From assembly GCF_002733955.1 (NCBI RefSeq), contig NZ_NVXQ01000021.1, positions 62,001 to 126,000 on the forward strand: DNA of 64,000 nt, in the 5' to 3' direction. Position 1 is the first letter of the stretch; the number at the start of each line of letters is the position of its first letter. Position numbers and translations under genes: made by a program. Under the pieces are notes generated by a model. It worked only from the letters and a program-made list of their open reading frames with translations, searched no databases and was not told where the DNA came from. Shown piece by piece: positions 1 through 40,764 of this stretch. Source of the DNA: Hoeflea sp. (GTDB lineage: Bacteria; Pseudomonadota; Alphaproteobacteria; Rhizobiales; Rhizobiaceae).

Positions 1-3000
1 CGACACCTTTGTCGCCCGGATGGCGCCAAAGGCGAAGCTGATCATTGTGCGGGCGCTCGGCGGGGCAAGTTATTTTGCCTATGCGCTCGAAAGCCTGCAT
101 GCGGCGGCGTCCACACATGCCATAAAGCTGGCGGCGCTGCCCGGCGATGACCGGCCGGATCCGGGGCTCGAACCGCTGTCGACGCTGGACCCGGCGGCAC
201 GTGACCAGCTCTGGGGCTATCTGATCGAAGGCGGGGCGGAGAATGCGCGCGGGCTGATCGAGTACGCCGAGGCGCTGCTTGATGGCGGCGAGAAACCCGC
301 ACCGGCGGCTCCCCTGCTCAAGGCCGGGCTGTGGCATCCGCAAGTGAGCAATCCGGCACTGGCGGATCTGAGCAGGGACTGGATTCCGGGCGCGCCGGTG
401 GCGGTGCTCTGTTTTTACCGGGCGCTGGTGCAAAGCGGACAGACTGCTCCGGTGGCGGCCCTGTGCGGCGGGCTGAAAGCACAAGGCGTTAACGCGCTGC
501 CGGTGTTTGTCTCGAGCCTCAAGGATCCGGTCTCGGTCGGCACCGTTGAGGCGATCTTCGCCGATGCACCGCCGGATGTGGTGGTCAATGCCACCGGCTT
601 TGCGGTGTCGTCTCCGGGCGGGGCGACCAAGGGCACGGTGCTGGAAACGACCGGTGCGCCGGTGTTGCAGGCGGTGTTTGCCGGAGGCGGTCGCGAGGCC
701 TGGGCAGGGTCGCAACAGGGTCTGACCTCGCGTGACCTCGCCATGCATGTGGTCTTGCCGGAGGTCGATGGCCGGGTGCTTTCCCGCGCGGTGTCGTTCA
801 AGTCTGCGGCGCGGTTTGATGAGACGGTTGAAGCCAATATCGTCACCCATGCGCCGGAGTCTGACCGGGTTCAATTCGTTGCCGAGCTTGCTGCGCGCTG
901 GGCCCGGTTGCGGCGGACGCCAGCGCCGGATCGCCGGGTGGCAATCATATTGGCCAATTATCCCAATCGTGACGGACGCATCGCCAATGGCGTCGGGCTC
1001 GATACGCCGGCGGGCACGATCGAGGTGCTGAAAGCCATGGCCGAGGCCGGATACCAGACCGGTGAGCTGCCCGAAGACGGCGATGGGCTGGTGACGGCGC
1101 TGAAGGCCGGGCCGACCAATGCGATCCGTGACGACCGCAGCGGTGGGGTTCCTCTTTCGCTTGAGGACTACCGGGCGTTTTTCAATACGCTTGATCCGAG
1201 CATTAAAGCGGCCGTGACCGAGCGCTGGGGCGCGCCGGAAGCCGATCCGTTCTACCGCGACGGGGTGTTTCATCTGGGGCTGTTGACCTTCGGCAATGTC
1301 GCGGTCGGCATCCAGCCGGCGCGCGGCTACAACATCGATCCGAAAGCCAGCTATCACGCGCCGGATCTGGTGCCGCCGCACGGCTATTTCGCGTTTTATG
1401 CCTGGCTGCGGCAGCAGTTTGATGTCCACGCGGTGGTGCATATGGGCAAGCACGGCAATCTTGAATGGCTGCCGGGCAAAGCGCTGGCGCTGTCGCGAGC
1501 CTGCTATCCCGAGGCGGTGCTTGGGGCCATGCCGCATGTCTATCCGTTCATCGTCAATGATCCGGGCGAGGGGACGCAGGCCAAGCGGCGGACATCGGCT
1601 GTGATCATCGACCATCTGACGCCGCCGCTGACCCGGGCGGAAAGCTACGGTCCGCTCAAGGATCTCGAGGCGCTGGTTGACGAGTTCTACGAAGCCTCCG
1701 GCCACGATCCGCGGCGGCTGAAATTGCTGAAAACCCAGATCCTCGATCTGGTGCGCGATATCGGTCTTGATAGCGACGCCGGCATTGCGCCGGGCGATGA
1801 TGACGATCTGGCGCTGGAAAAACTCGACGCCTGGCTGTGCGATCTCAAGGAAATGCAGATCCGCGACGGGCTGCACATCTTCGGCAAATCGCCTGAGGGT
1901 GGGTTGCTGACCGATCTCACCGTGGCGCTGGCGCGGATCAAGCGCGGTGAAGCGCCGGGTGACGACAGCCTGCAGCGGGCGATTGCGCGGGATGCGTTGA
2001 AAAACCCCTCCCCAACCCAGCCGGGGCGAGCCACGGGTCTCGCCCGTCCTTCGGACCCCCACAAGGGGGAGGGGCTCGGTTCAGCGGGTGACGCGCATTC
2101 GGAAACAACTATCGACAACGGAAAATCCGGATTTCCTTCTGTGAAGGCGCGACCGTCTAGCCCCTCCCACCTGTGGGGAGGGGTTGGGGAGGGGCCTTTC
2201 GCGGATACGCTTGAGAAGGGGCCTGTCTTCGACCCCCTCGATTGCCCGATGGGCGAGCCGTGGACAGGGCCAAAGCCGGACATTCTGCAATCCGTTTCCG
2301 ATGATCTGTGGCGCACAAATGGCGACACGGTGGAGCGGTTCGAGTTGCTGGCGATCGAGCTGGTTTCCGGCCGCGTTGCCCTGCCGGATGACTGGTCCGC
2401 GACGCGGGCGGTGATGGAGAGGATCGAGACCTCGATCAGGCCTTCGGTGGAAGCCTGCGGCGCGGCTGAAATCAACGGCCTGCTGACGGCCCTCGACGGG
2501 CGTTTCGTTGCGCCGGGGCCTTCGGGGGCACCGACGCGGGGGCGGCCGGATGTGTTGCCGACGGGGCGGAATTTCTATTCGGTCGACAGCCGCGCGGTGC
2601 CGACGCCGGCGGCCTGGGAGCTGGGGCAGAAATCGGCGGAACTGCTGGTCACCCGCCATGTGCAGGATCACGGCGAATGGCCGACCTCGATGGCGCTGAC
2701 GGCCTGGGGCACGTCCAACATGCGCACCGGCGGCGATGACATCGCCCAGGCGCTGGCGCTGATCGGCGCCAAACCGGTGTGGGATCCGGCCTCGCGGCGG
2801 GTCACCGGCTACGAGATCATTCCGCTGGCGATGATGAACCGGCCGCGGGTCGACGTCACCTTGCGGATATCCGGCTTTTTCCGCGATGCGTTTCCCGACC
2901 AGATCGCCCTGTTTGACCGGGCAGTGCGGGCCGTTGCCGCACTCGACGAGGATGAGGCTGACAATCCGCTTGCTGCGCGGGCCAGAGGCGAGAGTGCGCG

Positions 3001-3760
3001 GCTGGTCGAGACCGGTGTACCCGAGACCGAAGCGTTGCGCCGAGCTTCATTCCGTGTATTCGGCTCCAAGCCGGGGGCTTATGGCGCAGGCTTGCAGGCG
3101 CTGATGGACGAGGGCGGCTGGACCGATCGCGGCGATCTGGCCGAGGCCTTCGTCGTCTGGGGCGGCTATGCCTATGGCGCCGGCGAAGAGGGGCAGGCGG
3201 CGCATGAATTGTTCGAGCAGCGGCTCTCGACGGTGGAAGCCGTGGTGCAGAACCAGGACAACCGCGAGCATGATCTGCTCGATTCCGATGATTACTACCA
3301 GTTCGAGGGCGGCATGACGGCTGCGGTGGAAGCGGCGCGCGGCACGCGGCCGGCGATCTATCACAATGACCATTCCCGGCCCGAGCGTCCGGTGATCCGG
3401 TCGCTGGAAGAGGAAATCGCGCGGGTGGTGCGCGGGCGGGCGGTCAATCCGAAATGGATAGAGGGCGTCAAGCGGCACGGCTACAAGGGCGCCTTCGAGA
3501 TGGCGGCGACGGTCGACTATCTGTTTGCCTTTGCCGCCACCACCGGCGCGGTGCGTGACGCGCATTTCGACGCCGTCTACCAGGCCTATCTGATGGACGA
3601 GGAGACGCTCGCCTTCCTGCGCGAGAAGAACCCCGATGCGCTGAAGGAAATGGCCGAAAAATTCGAAGAGGCGATCGAGCGCGGGCTGTGGACGCCGAAG
3701 AGCAATTCGGCCAAGTTTGCGCTTGGCGAACTGGCGGGACACCCGCCCGGGCATGGATGA
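1..3760 (+). CDS. cobN: Aerobic cobaltochelatase large subunit CobN, 5' end outside the window
   Basis: CobN is the large subunit of the ATP-dependent CobNST chelatase, which inserts cobalt into hydrogenobyrinic acid a,c-diamide in the late-insertion B12 route. The reading frame is already open at base 2 (D-T-F-V-A-R before the first Met at base 20). That Met lies in a conserved stretch (KLIIVRALGGASYF), so the true start is upstream. About 1252 residues are visible. The family block HMGKHGNLEWLPGK lies near residue 474 (counted from base 20) and the conserved C-terminal block SRPERPVIRSLEEEIA near 1118. About 65 residues around 660-725, between ARDAL and FDPLDC, are not CobN-like and are encoded by a palindromic repeat at 2005-2194. 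The frame stays open through it. A GNAT gene and cobO follow. The family call is certain; whether the insertion affects activity is unknown. Confidence 0.97.
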   Translation, partial: DTFVARMAPKAKLIIVRALGGASYFAYALESLHAAASTHAIKLAALPGDDRPDPGLEPLSTLDPAARDQLWGYLIEGGAENARGLIEYAEALLDGGEKPAPAAPLLKAGLWHPQVSNPALADLSRDWIPGAPVAVLCFYRALVQSGQTAPVAALCGGLKAQGVNALPVFVSSLKDPVSVGTVEAIFADAPPDVVVNATGFAVSSPGGATKGTVLETTGAPVLQAVFAGGGREAWAGSQQGLTSRDLAMHVVLPEVDGRVLSRAVSFKSAARFDETVEANIVTHAPESDRVQFVAELAARWARLRRTPAPDRRVAIILANYPNRDGRIANGVGLDTPAGTIEVLKAMAEAGYQTGELPEDGDGLVTALKAGPTNAIRDDRSGGVPLSLEDYRAFFNTLDPSIKAAVTERWGAPEADPFYRDGVFHLGLLTFGNVAVGIQPARGYNIDPKASYHAPDLVPPHGYFAFYAWLRQQFDVHAVVHMGKHGNLEWLPGKALALSRACYPEAVLGAMPHVYPFIVNDPGEGTQAKRRTSAVIIDHLTPPLTRAESYGPLKDLEALVDEFYEASGHDPRRLKLLKTQILDLVRDIGLDSDAGIAPGDDDDLALEKLDAWLCDLKEMQIRDGLHIFGKSPEGGLLTDLTVALARIKRGEAPGDDSLQRAIARDALKNPSPTQPGRATGLARPSDPHKGEGLGSAGDAHSETTIDNGKSGFPSVKARPSSPSHLWGGVGEGPFADTLEKGPVFDPLDCPMGEPWTGPKPDILQSVSDDLWRTNGDTVERFELLAIELVSGRVALPDDWSATRAVMERIETSIRPSVEACGAAEINGLLTALDGRFVAPGPSGAPTRGRPDVLPTGRNFYSVDSRAVPTPAAWELGQKSAELLVTRHVQDHGEWPTSMALTAWGTSNMRTGGDDIAQALALIGAKPVWDPASRRVTGYEIIPLAMMNRPRVDVTLRISGFFRDAFPDQIALFDRAVRAVAALDEDEADNPLAARARGESARLVETGVPETEALRRASFRVFGSKPGAYGAGLQALMDEGGWTDRGDLAEAFVVWGGYAYGAGEEGQAAHELFEQRLSTVEAVVQNQDNREHDLLDSDDYYQFEGGMTAAVEAARGTRPAIYHNDHSRPERPVIRSLEEEIARVVRGRAVNPKWIEGVKRHGYKGAFEMAATVDYLFAFAATTGAVRDAHFDAVYQAYLMDEETLAFLREKNPDALKEMAEKFEEAIERGLWTPKSNSAKFALGELAGHPPGHG
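2005..2194. repeat. REPIN-like palindromic element inserted in frame in cobN
   Basis: A 190-bp block lies inside cobN. Its right arm (2161-2194) is identical over 34 bases to the right arm of the intergenic element at 39638-39671. Its left arm starts at 2005 and resumes at 2056-2075 after an interruption of about 37 bases that can itself fold. The left arm is an imperfect inverse complement of the right arm, so the whole block could form one long hairpin. It is read through without a stop and gives a Pro/Gly/Ser-rich segment containing HLWGGVGEGP. The layout resembles paired REP sequences (REPINs) and the protein-coding palindromic elements known from Rickettsia. The family name is my inference. 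Confidence 0.85.
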
Positions 3761-20821: not shown

Positions 20822-21253
20822 ATGCGAAATCTGGTATTGGCAGGGCTTTTCGCCCTCTCACTTCTTCCGTTCTCATCAGCTTCGGCGTTCGCAGCAAAGC
20901 TCATCGCCAAGGTGGATATTTCATCGCAGACCATGGTGGTCACCCACAATGGCAAGGTGAAATACAAATGGCCGGTCTCGACCGGTCGCAAGGGCTACTC
21001 GACGCCGACCGGGAGTTACTCGGCAAAATGGCTGTCGCGCCACCACAGGTCGCGCAAATACAACAATGCGCCGATGCCTTATGCGGTGTTCTATCATCGC
21101 GGTTACGCCGTCCACGCCACCTATGACACCAAGCGTCTGGGCCGTGTCGCCTCGCATGGCTGTGTTCGCCTTGCTCCGGAAAATGCCGCCAAGTTCTTTG
21201 CGCTGGTCCAGAAGACCGGCAACAAGAACACCCGGATCGTCATCAAGCACTAA
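20822..21253 (+). CDS. L,D-transpeptidase (YkuD domain), secreted
   Basis: A 143-residue exported enzyme with an N-terminal signal peptide ending near residue 24 (SSASAFA-A) and a single YkuD domain. The catalytic motif SHGCVRLAPENAAKFF holds the Cys near residue 119, and the upstream His is in YAVFYHRGYAVHATYD. YkuD enzymes make 3-3 cross-links in peptidoglycan or link outer-membrane proteins to it. It has its own A+T-rich upstream region (20691-20821). A perfect 25-base tandem duplication spans its stop codon without changing the C-terminus (IVIKH). Confidence 0.93.
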   Translation: MRNLVLAGLFALSLLPFSSASAFAAKLIAKVDISSQTMVVTHNGKVKYKWPVSTGRKGYSTPTGSYSAKWLSRHHRSRKYNNAPMPYAVFYHRGYAVHATYDTKRLGRVASHGCVRLAPENAAKFFALVQKTGNKNTRIVIKH

Positions 21254-21276
21254 CACCCGGATCGTCATCAAGCACT
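21227..21276. repeat. Perfect 25-bp tandem duplication over the stop codon of the L,D-transpeptidase
   Basis: Bases 21227-21251 and 21252-21276 are identical. The first copy supplies the last codons and the T of the TAA stop. The second copy lies just after and would have ended the gene in TGA before the duplication. The protein sequence is the same either way, so this looks like a recent neutral slippage event. Confidence 0.95.
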
Positions 21277-38261: not shown

Positions 38262-39374
38262 TCAGCCCAGTTCCGCCACGACCTCTGCGAGTGTTTTCTC
38301 GAACAGATCGATTTCGGGCCCGGGGCCTGTCGAAATGCGGATGCAGCGGTTGAGCGGCGCCACGCCGGGCATGCGGATGAAGACGCCGCGGCTGACCAGC
38401 CCATCAAGAATTGCCTTGGCGTAAGCGGCATCACGGCCGCAATCGACGGTGACGAAATTGGTGGCCGAGGCAATCGGCTTGAAACCGTGGCCTTCCGCAA
38501 TGGCCGCGATCCGGTCGCGGGATGCCGAGACCTGGGCCAGTACATGGGCGAGCCAGTCCTGGTCTTTCAACGCCGCCAGGGCTGCGGCCTGGCCCAGCCG
38601 GTTGACGCCGAAATGGTTGCGCACCCGGTGGAACATGGCCACGCTGTCCTCGGTGCCGAAGACATAGCCGACCCGCTGGCCGGCGAGGCCATAGGCCTTG
38701 GAGAAGGTTCGGAAGCGCAGCACGTTGGCCATGTCGGCAAGTGCTGAGTTTGCGGGCAGCGCGGCGGCCGGCGCGGTTTCGCCATAGGCTTCGTCGAGCA
38801 CCAGCATGGTGGTTTCGGGCAGGGCCCGGGCGAAGGCGGTCACGGCTTCGGCGGAATGCCAGGTGCCCATCGGGTTGTCGGGGTTGGAGAGATAGACCAG
38901 CGGCGCGTTCTCGCGGCGGACGGCGTCGAGCAGCGCATCGAGATCCTCGCGGTCATCGCGGTAGGGCACGGTGACAAGCTCTCCGCCAAAGCCTGCGACA
39001 TGAAAATTGAAGGTCGGATATGCGCCGAGCGAGGTGACAACCGGGGTGCCGGGCTCGACGATCAGCCGCACGATGAGCCCCAACAGCCCGTCGATGCCTT
39101 CGCCGACCACCACCCGCTCGGGCGCCAGGCCCAGATGCGCGCCAAGGCCCGCGCGCAGATCATGGTTTTCCGGATCCGCATAGCGCCAGCTCAGCTGAGC
39201 CTCACGCGTGATCGCCTCGATCACCGACGGCGCCGGACCAAACCCGTTCTCATTGGCGCCAAGCCGCGCCTCAAACTCCGCCCCGCGCGCCCGCTCCTGG
39301 GTCTCCGGCCCGACAAACGGCACGGTCGGTGGCAGCGATTGGGCAAGAGCGGTAAAGCGGGCAAAAGCGGGCAT
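38262..39374 (-). CDS. HisC-like pyridoxal phosphate aminotransferase
   Basis: A 370-residue fold-type I aminotransferase related to histidinol-phosphate aminotransferase. ARLGANENGFGPAPSVIEAI lies near residue 37, the PLP-binding LDEAYGE near 197 and the PLP Lys in FRTFSKAYGLAGQRVGY near 226. The Arg motif CIRISTG lies near the C-terminus. The ATG at 39374 is used; the frame upstream runs into a repeat element. There are no histidine genes nearby, so this may be a paralogue with another substrate (for example an aromatic amino acid). Confidence 0.88.
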   Translation of the reverse strand: MPAFARFTALAQSLPPTVPFVGPETQERARGAEFEARLGANENGFGPAPSVIEAITREAQLSWRYADPENHDLRAGLGAHLGLAPERVVVGEGIDGLLGLIVRLIVEPGTPVVTSLGAYPTFNFHVAGFGGELVTVPYRDDREDLDALLDAVRRENAPLVYLSNPDNPMGTWHSAEAVTAFARALPETTMLVLDEAYGETAPAAALPANSALADMANVLRFRTFSKAYGLAGQRVGYVFGTEDSVAMFHRVRNHFGVNRLGQAAALAALKDQDWLAHVLAQVSASRDRIAAIAEGHGFKPIASATNFVTVDCGRDAAYAKAILDGLVSRGVFIRMPGVAPLNRCIRISTGPGPEIDLFEKTLAEVVAELG

Positions 39375-39517
39375 GTCGGATCGGTCCTGTAACAATGGCC
39401 CGAAATCCCTAGCGGCAATGGGGGTTGGCTTCAAGCGGGGAAAAGGCGGTGGTGCCGTGGGGCAGGGGCGAAAGGCAACATCGCATCTCGAAGGAGTGCG
39501 TACAACGCCAATAAGTG

Positions 39518-39671
39518 CCCCTCCCCACCCCCTCCCCACAAGGGGGAGGGGCTAGTGTGCGGGTCGTTCCAGTTCCAGACAGGAAGTCCCGTGTCGTTGA
39601 AAGCGCCGGGATACGAAGACAGGCGCGGCCGGGTTAACCCCTCCCACCTGTGGGGAGGGGTTGGGGAGGGG
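39518..39671. repeat. REPIN-like intergenic palindromic element
   Basis: Two 34-base arms (39518-39551 and 39638-39671) are inverse complements at 31 of 34 positions and enclose 86 bases. Each arm can also fold on itself. The right arm is identical to that inside cobN (2161-2194). The element fills much of the gap between the hisC-like gene and the AEC transporter gene, which are transcribed divergently. Confidence 0.9.
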
Positions 39672-39786
39672 TCTTTTGGCCGCCGCTGGCACCAACCCCA
39701 CAGCAAGCCCACTCCCGCGTCTCCCGCATTAATCAAGCCCGGCGCTTTGCGTGCCCGGCCGCACGGTCTATGAACAGGGTCCCGCC

Positions 39787-40764
39787 ATGTATCCCGAGTC
39801 TCCCCTGATGCCTCCCTTTGCCGAAACCATTCTTGTTGTCTTCACGCTGATTGCCATTGGTTATGGAGCGGCGGCGCTCAGGGTGCTCAAGCCGGAAACC
39901 GGCGACGGGCTTTCGGATTTCGTGTTCACCATCGCGGTTCCGCTGTTGCTGTTTCGGATTATTGCCACGGCGAGTTTTGACCATGGTGCTCCCTGGGCGG
40001 TGTGGGCTGCCTATTTCACCTCCGTGCTGGTCACCTGGGTGTCGGCACATCTGATCATACGCGCCGGCTTCGGGCGCGATGCACGCTCCGGGGTTGTCGC
40101 TGGGGTGACAGCCGGATTCTCCAATCTGGTGCTGCTGGGACTGCCGTTCATCACCGGCGTCTATGGCGAGGATGGCCTGGCGATCCTGTCGCAGATCGTC
40201 ACCATTCACTTGCCGATCATGATGGCGGCCTCGGTCATCCTGTTCGAATGGGCGCTCAAACGCGACGGCGCCGGCACGGGTGGCAAGTCAATGATGGCGC
40301 TGCTGACGGGGTTTCTGCGTCAGCTTTTCTCCAATCCGTTGATCGTCGGAATCCTCTGCGGCTTCATCGTGCGGATGTCCGGCCTTGAGATCCCGCGGAT
40401 TGCCGACCGGGTGATCGGCAGCCTGGGCGGGGTCGCCGGCCCGGTGGCGCTATTTGCCATGGGCGTTTCGCTGCGCGGCTACGGCATTCGCGGGCAGGTG
40501 CCACAGGCGTTATCGCTGGTGACTTTGAAACTGATGCTGATGCCGGCGGTGGCGCTGGGCATGGCGCTGGTGCTCGGTCTTCCGGAGCTTCAGGCCAAGG
40601 TCGTCGTCGCCGCGGCATCCCTGCCTGCCGGCGTCAACAGCTGGCTGATCGCCAGCCGTCTTGGCACCGGGCAACGGCTGGCGTCGAGTTCGATGACGCT
40701 GGGCACGGCGCTGGCTGCGGCCACAACCGGGCTGTGGCTGCTGATCGCCGAGGCAGTACTGTGA
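39787..40764 (+). CDS. AEC (auxin efflux carrier) family transporter
   Basis: A 325-residue membrane protein with about ten hydrophobic spans arranged as two halves. The N-terminal half has ETILVVFTLIAIGYGAAALR and the C-terminal half has FSNPLIVGILCGFIVRMSGL and VALFAMGVSLRGYG, typical of bacterial AEC carriers such as malonate or malate permeases. The ATG at 39787 is preceded by ACAGGG; 39808 (MPPFAET) is a possible shorter start. The substrate is unknown. It lies just after the REPIN-like element and 112 bases before glpD. Confidence 0.9.
   Translation: MYPESPLMPPFAETILVVFTLIAIGYGAAALRVLKPETGDGLSDFVFTIAVPLLLFRIIATASFDHGAPWAVWAAYFTSVLVTWVSAHLIIRAGFGRDARSGVVAGVTAGFSNLVLLGLPFITGVYGEDGLAILSQIVTIHLPIMMAASVILFEWALKRDGAGTGGKSMMALLTGFLRQLFSNPLIVGILCGFIVRMSGLEIPRIADRVIGSLGGVAGPVALFAMGVSLRGYGIRGQVPQALSLVTLKLMLMPAVALGMALVLGLPELQAKVVVAAASLPAGVNSWLIASRLGTGQRLASSSMTLGTALAAATTGLWLLIAEAVL

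Follow-up and report, generated by a model that had tools for sequence, protein, structure and literature searches.

Palindromic elements recurrently occupy the same CobN loops in Rhizobiaceae and are probably tolerated as translated, disordered extensions

Introduction

How does a conserved enzyme gene accommodate a palindromic repeat within its own reading frame? The question is raised by a Hoeflea cobN gene lying at the start of the stretch of DNA analysed here, which is 64,000 nucleotides long and is hereafter called the window. The arms of the palindrome resemble those of REPINs, which consist of two REP arms in inverted orientation and occur with RAYT transposases. Here we describe the cobN insert, follow its site through related genomes and weigh the explanations for its presence. 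Our comparisons suggest that palindromic elements are probably translated and tolerated as disordered extensions of CobN loops.

Results

The cobN gene encodes the cobaltochelatase subunit CobN and lies on the plus strand at 20-3760. Its 1246 codons in the window contain no stop codon up to 3760, and the frame, which is open past the left edge, encodes 1326 aa in the genome. The window protein scores 1616.7 bits against TIGR02257 (cut-off 822.05) and also matches PF02514, identifying it as CobN. The entire insert spans 1994-2227 on the plus strand and forms 78 codons (residues 659-736) between D658 and F737, with neither a stop nor a change of frame. The window sequence thus confirms the in-frame, stop-free block that a preliminary description had placed at 2005-2194; the block is present there, but the unit is larger and includes a 3' tail at 2196-2227. 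The insert measures 234 nt versus 15 nt (5 codons) in the empty relatives G010 and G014, a net gain of 219 nt or 73 residues, and this comparison corrects the earlier figure of about 65 added residues.

The insert is built around an inverted pair of arms, and all its parts are given on the plus strand. The left arm (2005-2076; CCCCTCCCCAACCC ... CACAAGGGGGAGGGGCT) is interrupted by a nested segment of 41 nt at 2019-2059, which has a small hairpin of its own at 2023-2045. This segment stands where the G017 arm has 5 nt, and G007 and G015 have similar segments within their own cobN inserts. An inter-arm spacer of about 82 nt (2077-2158) is followed by the right arm (2159-2195) and by the 3' tail, which is longer than the tails of G017 and G004. 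As described earlier, 2161-2194 of the right arm is identical to 39638-39671 (34/34); when extended, the match covers 42 nt at 95%. Positions 2175-2194 read GGGGAGGGGTTGGGGAGGGG, a putative G-quadruplex-like motif on the mRNA strand. No target-site duplication was seen at the insert by eye.

Where the window protein has 78 residues, the solved structure of CobN chain 9uk9 has six (741-746). AlphaFold2 modelled residues 663-734 as unstructured coil (pLDDT below 50); a helix (pLDDT ~88) precedes the insert, and a stretch at 75-90 follows from about residue 741. The model is mediocre overall (mean pLDDT 69.5, pTM 0.57) and aligns to CobN and ChlH structures at low global TM-scores, none above 0.44. 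If translated in place, the insert would lengthen CobN by about 73 residues, most of them disordered. The proposal that CobN tolerates it as an exposed loop is backed both by the predicted coil and by the purifying selection on the core described below.

We searched the 4.86-Mb genome for the arm, whose absence elsewhere had been named as grounds for rejecting a repeat element. The arm is present elsewhere: its 22-nt core has seven mismatch-free copies, and the arm copies form four inverted pairs, one of them inside cobN, where the left arm is a variant. A control with the reversed pattern also gave seven copies and is uninformative, because the arm is nearly symmetric when read backwards. The spacers of the four pairs are mutually unrelated by eye, and the window's genome gave no further match to the spacer in cobN. 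The second inverted pair of the family in the window lies at 39518-39671, has no defined strand and carries a spacer unrelated to that of cobN. It is located at the start of a minus-strand ORF (38262-39539) that looks by eye like a histidinol-phosphate aminotransferase gene and whose true start is probably further in; a plus-strand ORF for a membrane-like protein (39751-40764) comes after the pair. The repeat table of the window also lists two identical tandem copies of a 25-bp unit (AACACCCGGATCGTCATCAAGCACT) at 21227-21276.

The Y1 transposase family PF01797 was found in 5 of 18 Hoeflea genomes. At the four of these loci that were inspected, the 9-nt arm core, CCCCTCCCC or GGGGAGGGG, is absent beside PF01797. 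The window genome's single PF01797 frame (L245) is 138 aa long with no cobN-type arm core adjoining, at a locus bounded by the contig start 160 nt before the match. With no arm core at the PF01797 loci inspected, mobilisation of these arms by a RAYT is unsupported.

The interval from ARD to FDPLDC that holds the insert is hereafter called site B. A CobN search matched 330 of 394 Rhizobiaceae genomes, and our counts use the 219 matches at E <= 1e-50, the 111 weaker ones being left out. By a hand count from the table, which was recounted, 77 of the 219 matches are split or half-matched at site B. Coordinates were obtained for 72 split genomes, and 120 fetched regions plus the earlier Hoeflea loci gave 127 readable site-B intervals, G324 being unreadable there. 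The frequencies among these 127 are set by genome choice, because 72 genomes were picked as split at B and 40 as unsplit. The intervals range from 12 to 549 bp, with the shortest comprising only 4-6 codons; 84 reach a length of 60 bp and 75 a length of 81 bp. None of the unsplit-chosen genomes reaches 81 bp (0/40). Among the 72 non-Hoeflea genomes chosen as split, 71 were readable, each with at least 66 bp and 64 with at least 81 bp. An assembly artefact, which we considered, is unlikely because the insert recurs in these 71 of 72 genomes and, at 81 bp or more, in 11 of the 16 readable Hoeflea genomes. In genomes outside the family but of the same order, 125 of 132 matches run uninterrupted through the site, and at most four seem to be interrupted nearby. 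The site is empty or nearly so in the listed Thalassospira records, most Aureimonas and some Rhizobium, and other repeat-like inserts occupy the same point in Aureimonas Leaf427, Rhizobium C1, C4 and RYN_488, Oceaniradius and Roseitalea.

Most long site-B intervals resemble sequence elsewhere. With all of cobN, site A (the second loop described below) included, left out of the counts, matches outside cobN (E <= 1e-4, in the regions compared) were found for 70 of the 84 intervals that reach 60 bp and for 69 of the 75 that reach 81 bp; 21 of the 84 matched a copy within their own 20-kb region. The 14 of 84 with no match outside cobN comprise eight of at most 72 bp and six of at least 81 bp. It had been suggested that a homologous segment of the same length in CobN orthologues would speak against insertion. 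Segments of similar length do exist, but the long ones are mostly other dispersed repeats, as the 69 of 75 matches indicate.

At least six peptide classes, delimited by our own peptide patterns rather than by clustering, occur at site B: NPSPTPPHKGEGL/LWGGVGEG (in the window), DISPTRGE/SPLVGEMSGRTEGG, TSPPQGGR, GHLLPAGEK, RGEGARRADEG and TSPLRGGRR. TSPPQGGR is the DISPTRGE/SPLVGEMSGRTEGG DNA read one base on. Translated in its own frame, the insert of G087 gives PPSVLPDISPTRGEI; a shift by one base, into the frame that other genomes use, yields PPLSYRTSPPQGGR. Such use of one family in two frames suggests separate arrivals. Taken with the fact that an identical short interval has been struck in many genera, this could point to a preferred DNA target, where palindrome-moving machinery would recognise the local sequence so that unrelated families land there. 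We consider such targeting unlikely: no motif common to site B, site A and the third loop described below is obvious by eye, the repeat families differ, and the genome's single Y1 transposase match has no adjoining arm core (the contig starting, as noted, just before it).

Site A is a second cobN loop, extending from KAGIWWPG to CFYRALVQSG, and is empty in the window. Of 126 genomes (G103 was unreadable there), 54 have 120 bp or more at this loop, including 9 of the 40 chosen as unsplit at B and 45 of 70 split at B. A third cobN loop, about 1.15-1.25 kb upstream of site B, is occupied in three genomes, at L163 (G229), L167 (G168) and L176 (G282). Its repeats are confined to one genus (code g69) and are in frame in G229 and G282. 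In terms of placement, 75 repeats were counted at B, 71 at A, three in the third loop, 27 just upstream of cobN, where a gene was provisionally labelled 'cobW', and 64 elsewhere; these counts include the queries themselves, and gene limits are approximate. Minus-strand 'in-gene' matches just upstream of cobN were judged antisense or intergenic and were not counted.

To follow turnover, we mapped the inserts on a CobN tree (FastTree, 126 rows, inserts left out). Presence must change at least 36 times at B and at least 30 times at A, and the motif class at B at least 50 times; these counts are estimates, because 33 of 123 inner branches have support below 80, which can inflate them. On visual inspection, several genera have 60-72 bp intervals that resemble in-frame remnants, as in G230 and G169 next to G325. 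Since relatives hold unrelated palindromic repeats at the identical place, the sequences compared suggest that such elements have entered and left one CobN loop many times.

Within Hoeflea, the site was readable in 16 of 18 genomes; G009 and G012 were too incomplete, G015 is partial and G003 is frameshifted near the site. This arm family is present in nine of the 16 and an interval of only 14-15 nt in five, while G006 holds another palindrome and G005 an 81-bp interval of another kind. The close relatives G010, G014, G001 and G016 are empty. An 82-nt spacer can be aligned free of gaps in seven Hoeflea cobN inserts. Searching the 18 genomes with the window spacer gave five matches, every one at cobN; the search missed the two most diverged cobN spacers, so diverged copies elsewhere are possible.

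The histories of spacer and gene disagree. The spacers of G000, G004 and G017 differ at only 4-6 of 82 positions versus 0.20-0.46 at third codon positions up to 300 nt away from it, which counts against simple neutral tolerance. G008 and G011 differ at 24 of 82 spacer positions with a core third-position divergence (d3) of 0.17, while G011 and G013 differ at 5 of 82 with a d3 of 0.26. A tree uniting the insert-bearing G000, G004 and G017 was rejected (AU p 0.003), with the empty G010 and G014 nested among them. The discordant divergences and the AU rejection argue that the history of the insert is not simply that of the gene. We infer that the Hoeflea pattern may stem from the swapping of cobN alleles between strains or from break repair at the palindrome; the location of all five spacer matches at cobN fits such spread in place of plain descent. 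However, an ancient insertion with separate losses in G010, G014 and G001, combined with constraint, fits the pattern of presence too. In addition, a weak correlation between the divergence of gene and insert persists (Spearman 0.32, p 0.054, 36 pairs), and the AU-tested group, though set by insert presence, was chosen after the CobN tree had been seen. We therefore regard exchange or break repair as a real possibility in Hoeflea but lean slightly away from it.

The inserts keep the reading frame. Of the 75 site-B inserts that reach 81 bp, 74 have a length divisible by three and 73 lack stops as well; at site A, both properties hold for 53 of the 54 inserts of 120 bp or more. When the 73 site-B inserts are read in the other two forward frames, just 37 and 7 are free of stops. 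Except in two site-A pairs that align poorly, gap lengths among related inserts are multiples of three. Strong purifying selection acts on the core that separates the two sites: G000 and G017 show 26 nonsynonymous and 154 synonymous differences, and N/S ratios are 0.12-0.33 over 13 pairs.

These results bear on whether the insert is removed, through ribosome bypass or an intron-like splicing step, or else inactivates the gene; the preliminary description had envisaged splicing and inactivation. A large hairpin within a conserved gene could suggest as much, and cobN is indeed broken at inserts in two genomes: G233 is out of frame at B, and in G367 the B insert contains stops while the A insert breaks the frame. 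In G321 and G003, the stop or shift lies in the cobN core, away from the inserts. However, removal at the RNA level or ribosome hopping would not need frame keeping, and 73 of 75 inserts keep the frame without a stop; inactivation as a rule is disfavoured because the core is constrained in insert-bearing genomes. An Rfam scan of the whole window gave no family at gathering score. Removal and inactivation are thus very improbable.

Selection on the inserts themselves is much weaker. Over 11 site-B pairs at 80% identity or more, with two less similar pairs left out, N is 65 and S is 53, versus the core ratios above, and the differences fall 66, 57 and 88 on the three codon positions (chi-square p 0.027). 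At site A the corresponding differences are 40, 37 and 53 (p 0.19; four of 12 pairs, at 80% identity or more). The residues A, G, R, Q, S, E, K and P make up 0.70 of the inserts versus 0.52 of the core. No preference for a hydrophilic frame was seen: the frame in use exceeds the other two forward frames in hydrophilicity in just 25 and 18 of 73 cases at B and in just 17 and 19 of 53 at A.

Could the inserts be kept for a function? An mRNA hairpin or G-quadruplex might slow ribosomes at a domain boundary, or a disordered linker might tune the docking of the partner subunits. The insert RNA folds at -122 kcal/mol, better than 200 of 200 shuffles (z -4.3), but good folding is expected of any palindrome. 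The spacers of G000, G017 and G004 are unusually alike, site-B differences lean mildly to third positions and the same two cobN loops are reused repeatedly; yet several close relatives (the four empty ones named above) do without the insert, insert sequences vary widely among genera, constraint at the protein level is weak, and the site-A pairs lack a significant codon-position bias. Retention for function is, on balance, distinctly unlikely, and tolerance rather than benefit is the reading that we infer.

In-frame inserts are found in other genes too, so the insertion process is, judging from these sequences, general in the genomes compared. A CbiG-CobJ-like frame about 9 kb downstream of cobN carries one in five genomes, two of which were domain-scanned; at L133:18060-19499 and L137:17922-19499, a palindromic insert lies in frame between the CbiG N- and C-terminal domains, and the start of a CobJ-like domain follows. 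A threonine-phosphate decarboxylase-like frame holds an insert in G157 (domain-scanned) and G317, with a GEGKGEG-type repeat in frame at L124:516-1673 (minus strand). In-frame DISPTRGE/SPLVGEM repeats occur in a penicillin-binding protein 1C gene (L277:233-2554, minus strand) and a class IV aminotransferase-like gene (L291:1495-3264, minus strand). Four of 19 longer frames were Pfam-scanned, two of which matched families (PBP1C-like and class IV aminotransferase-like), and the in-gene count is accordingly partial and not genome-wide. In G157, two frame-specific peptide queries gave at least 143 and at least 150 scored matches; that cobN ranked first with one of them means nothing, because that query resembles the G157 cobN insert. 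Within regions picked for cobN, cobN appears to be the strongest case seen.

The presence of inserts in further cob-cluster genes invites a bolder proposal. The two CobN loops might serve as docking bays, in which palindromes are taken in, translated, enlarged and swapped because the hairpin or peptide modulates cobaltochelatase synthesis or assembly, with the CbiG-CobJ-like and threonine-phosphate decarboxylase-like genes included. We hold this to be improbable; if it were true, B12 synthesis would be a preferred arena for REP domestication.

Discussion

We propose a model for the recurrent inserts in CobN, with translation and tolerance as the preferred reading. A small palindromic element, made of two inverted REP-like arms and a spacer, would come to lie in the coding sequence of a CobN loop. 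Both loops would tolerate added residues, and unrelated palindromes arriving there would survive if they are in frame and stop-free. The inserts would later be enlarged by more repeats, trimmed in frame, swapped or lost. Landing itself may be untargeted, the hotspot arising as selection purges insertions elsewhere. The palindrome itself may also promote local breakage and repair, which would account for exchange and loss at the site. The model builds on features read directly from the compared sequences, namely the frame and stop-free state of the inserts, their similarity to dispersed repeats, their recurrence and turnover, the constrained core and the alignable Hoeflea spacer.

The site offers a natural replicate experiment, in partly culturable bacteria, on selfish DNA turning into protein sequence. 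Its many gains, replacements and losses are traceable and may inform on loop tolerance, insert lifetime and possible gain of function. It also gives a caution to annotators and structure predictors, as much of the length variation of Rhizobiaceae CobN is repeat insertion.

The cobN element is like REPINs in being an inverted pair of REP-like arms, with four such pairs in the genome. Unlike REPINs, it has a low copy number (the other repeat family, in G157, provides the contrast), its copies have unrelated spacers and no RAYT was seen beside an arm. GTAG/CGTC REPs are described as inverted-pair palindromes that are mostly intergenic, with some in genes and at times two per gene, as in uvrA (PMC3733652, 2013); a GTAG or CGTC stem foot is found in none of the eight arms of the window genome. 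The main text of that article contains neither 'cobalt' nor 'chelatase', and the portions consulted describe no recurrence in one loop across genera. CIR repeats of Caulobacter and Brucella are, in the part of the source consulted, alphaproteobacterial palindromes with two arms, a linker and a conserved GANTC (PMC2229807). The cobN element shares the arms and linker, but GANTC is absent from 1994-2227. Among titles and abstract openings, in a coverage that leaves out most subscription journals, no literature on palindromic inserts at this cobN site was found.

The closest parallels are the palindromic elements of Rickettsia and Wolbachia. In the portions of the literature consulted, Rickettsia palindromic elements (RPE) of 105-146 bp are inserted in frame in conserved genes and tolerated, the one tested product, a guanylate kinase, being translated and active, and Wolbachia addA, addB and priA each carry two or three in-frame WPE-like regions (PMC2229807, PMC10969869, PMC4224334). 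The comparison with the Rickettsia elements made in the preliminary description holds as an analogy of how the element may work: the window palindrome is likewise read in frame inside a conserved gene, here at the level of sequence. The known elements reside in intracellular bacteria and RPE, as far as the sources describe, in many unrelated genes, whereas here several unrelated families occupy two loops of one gene in mostly free-living genera. In-frame palindromes in Rickettsia and Wolbachia and intragenic REPs of several species are thus already known; what is new, as far as these genomes can be compared, is the recurrent occupation of the same cobN loops by several unrelated families in free-living bacteria.
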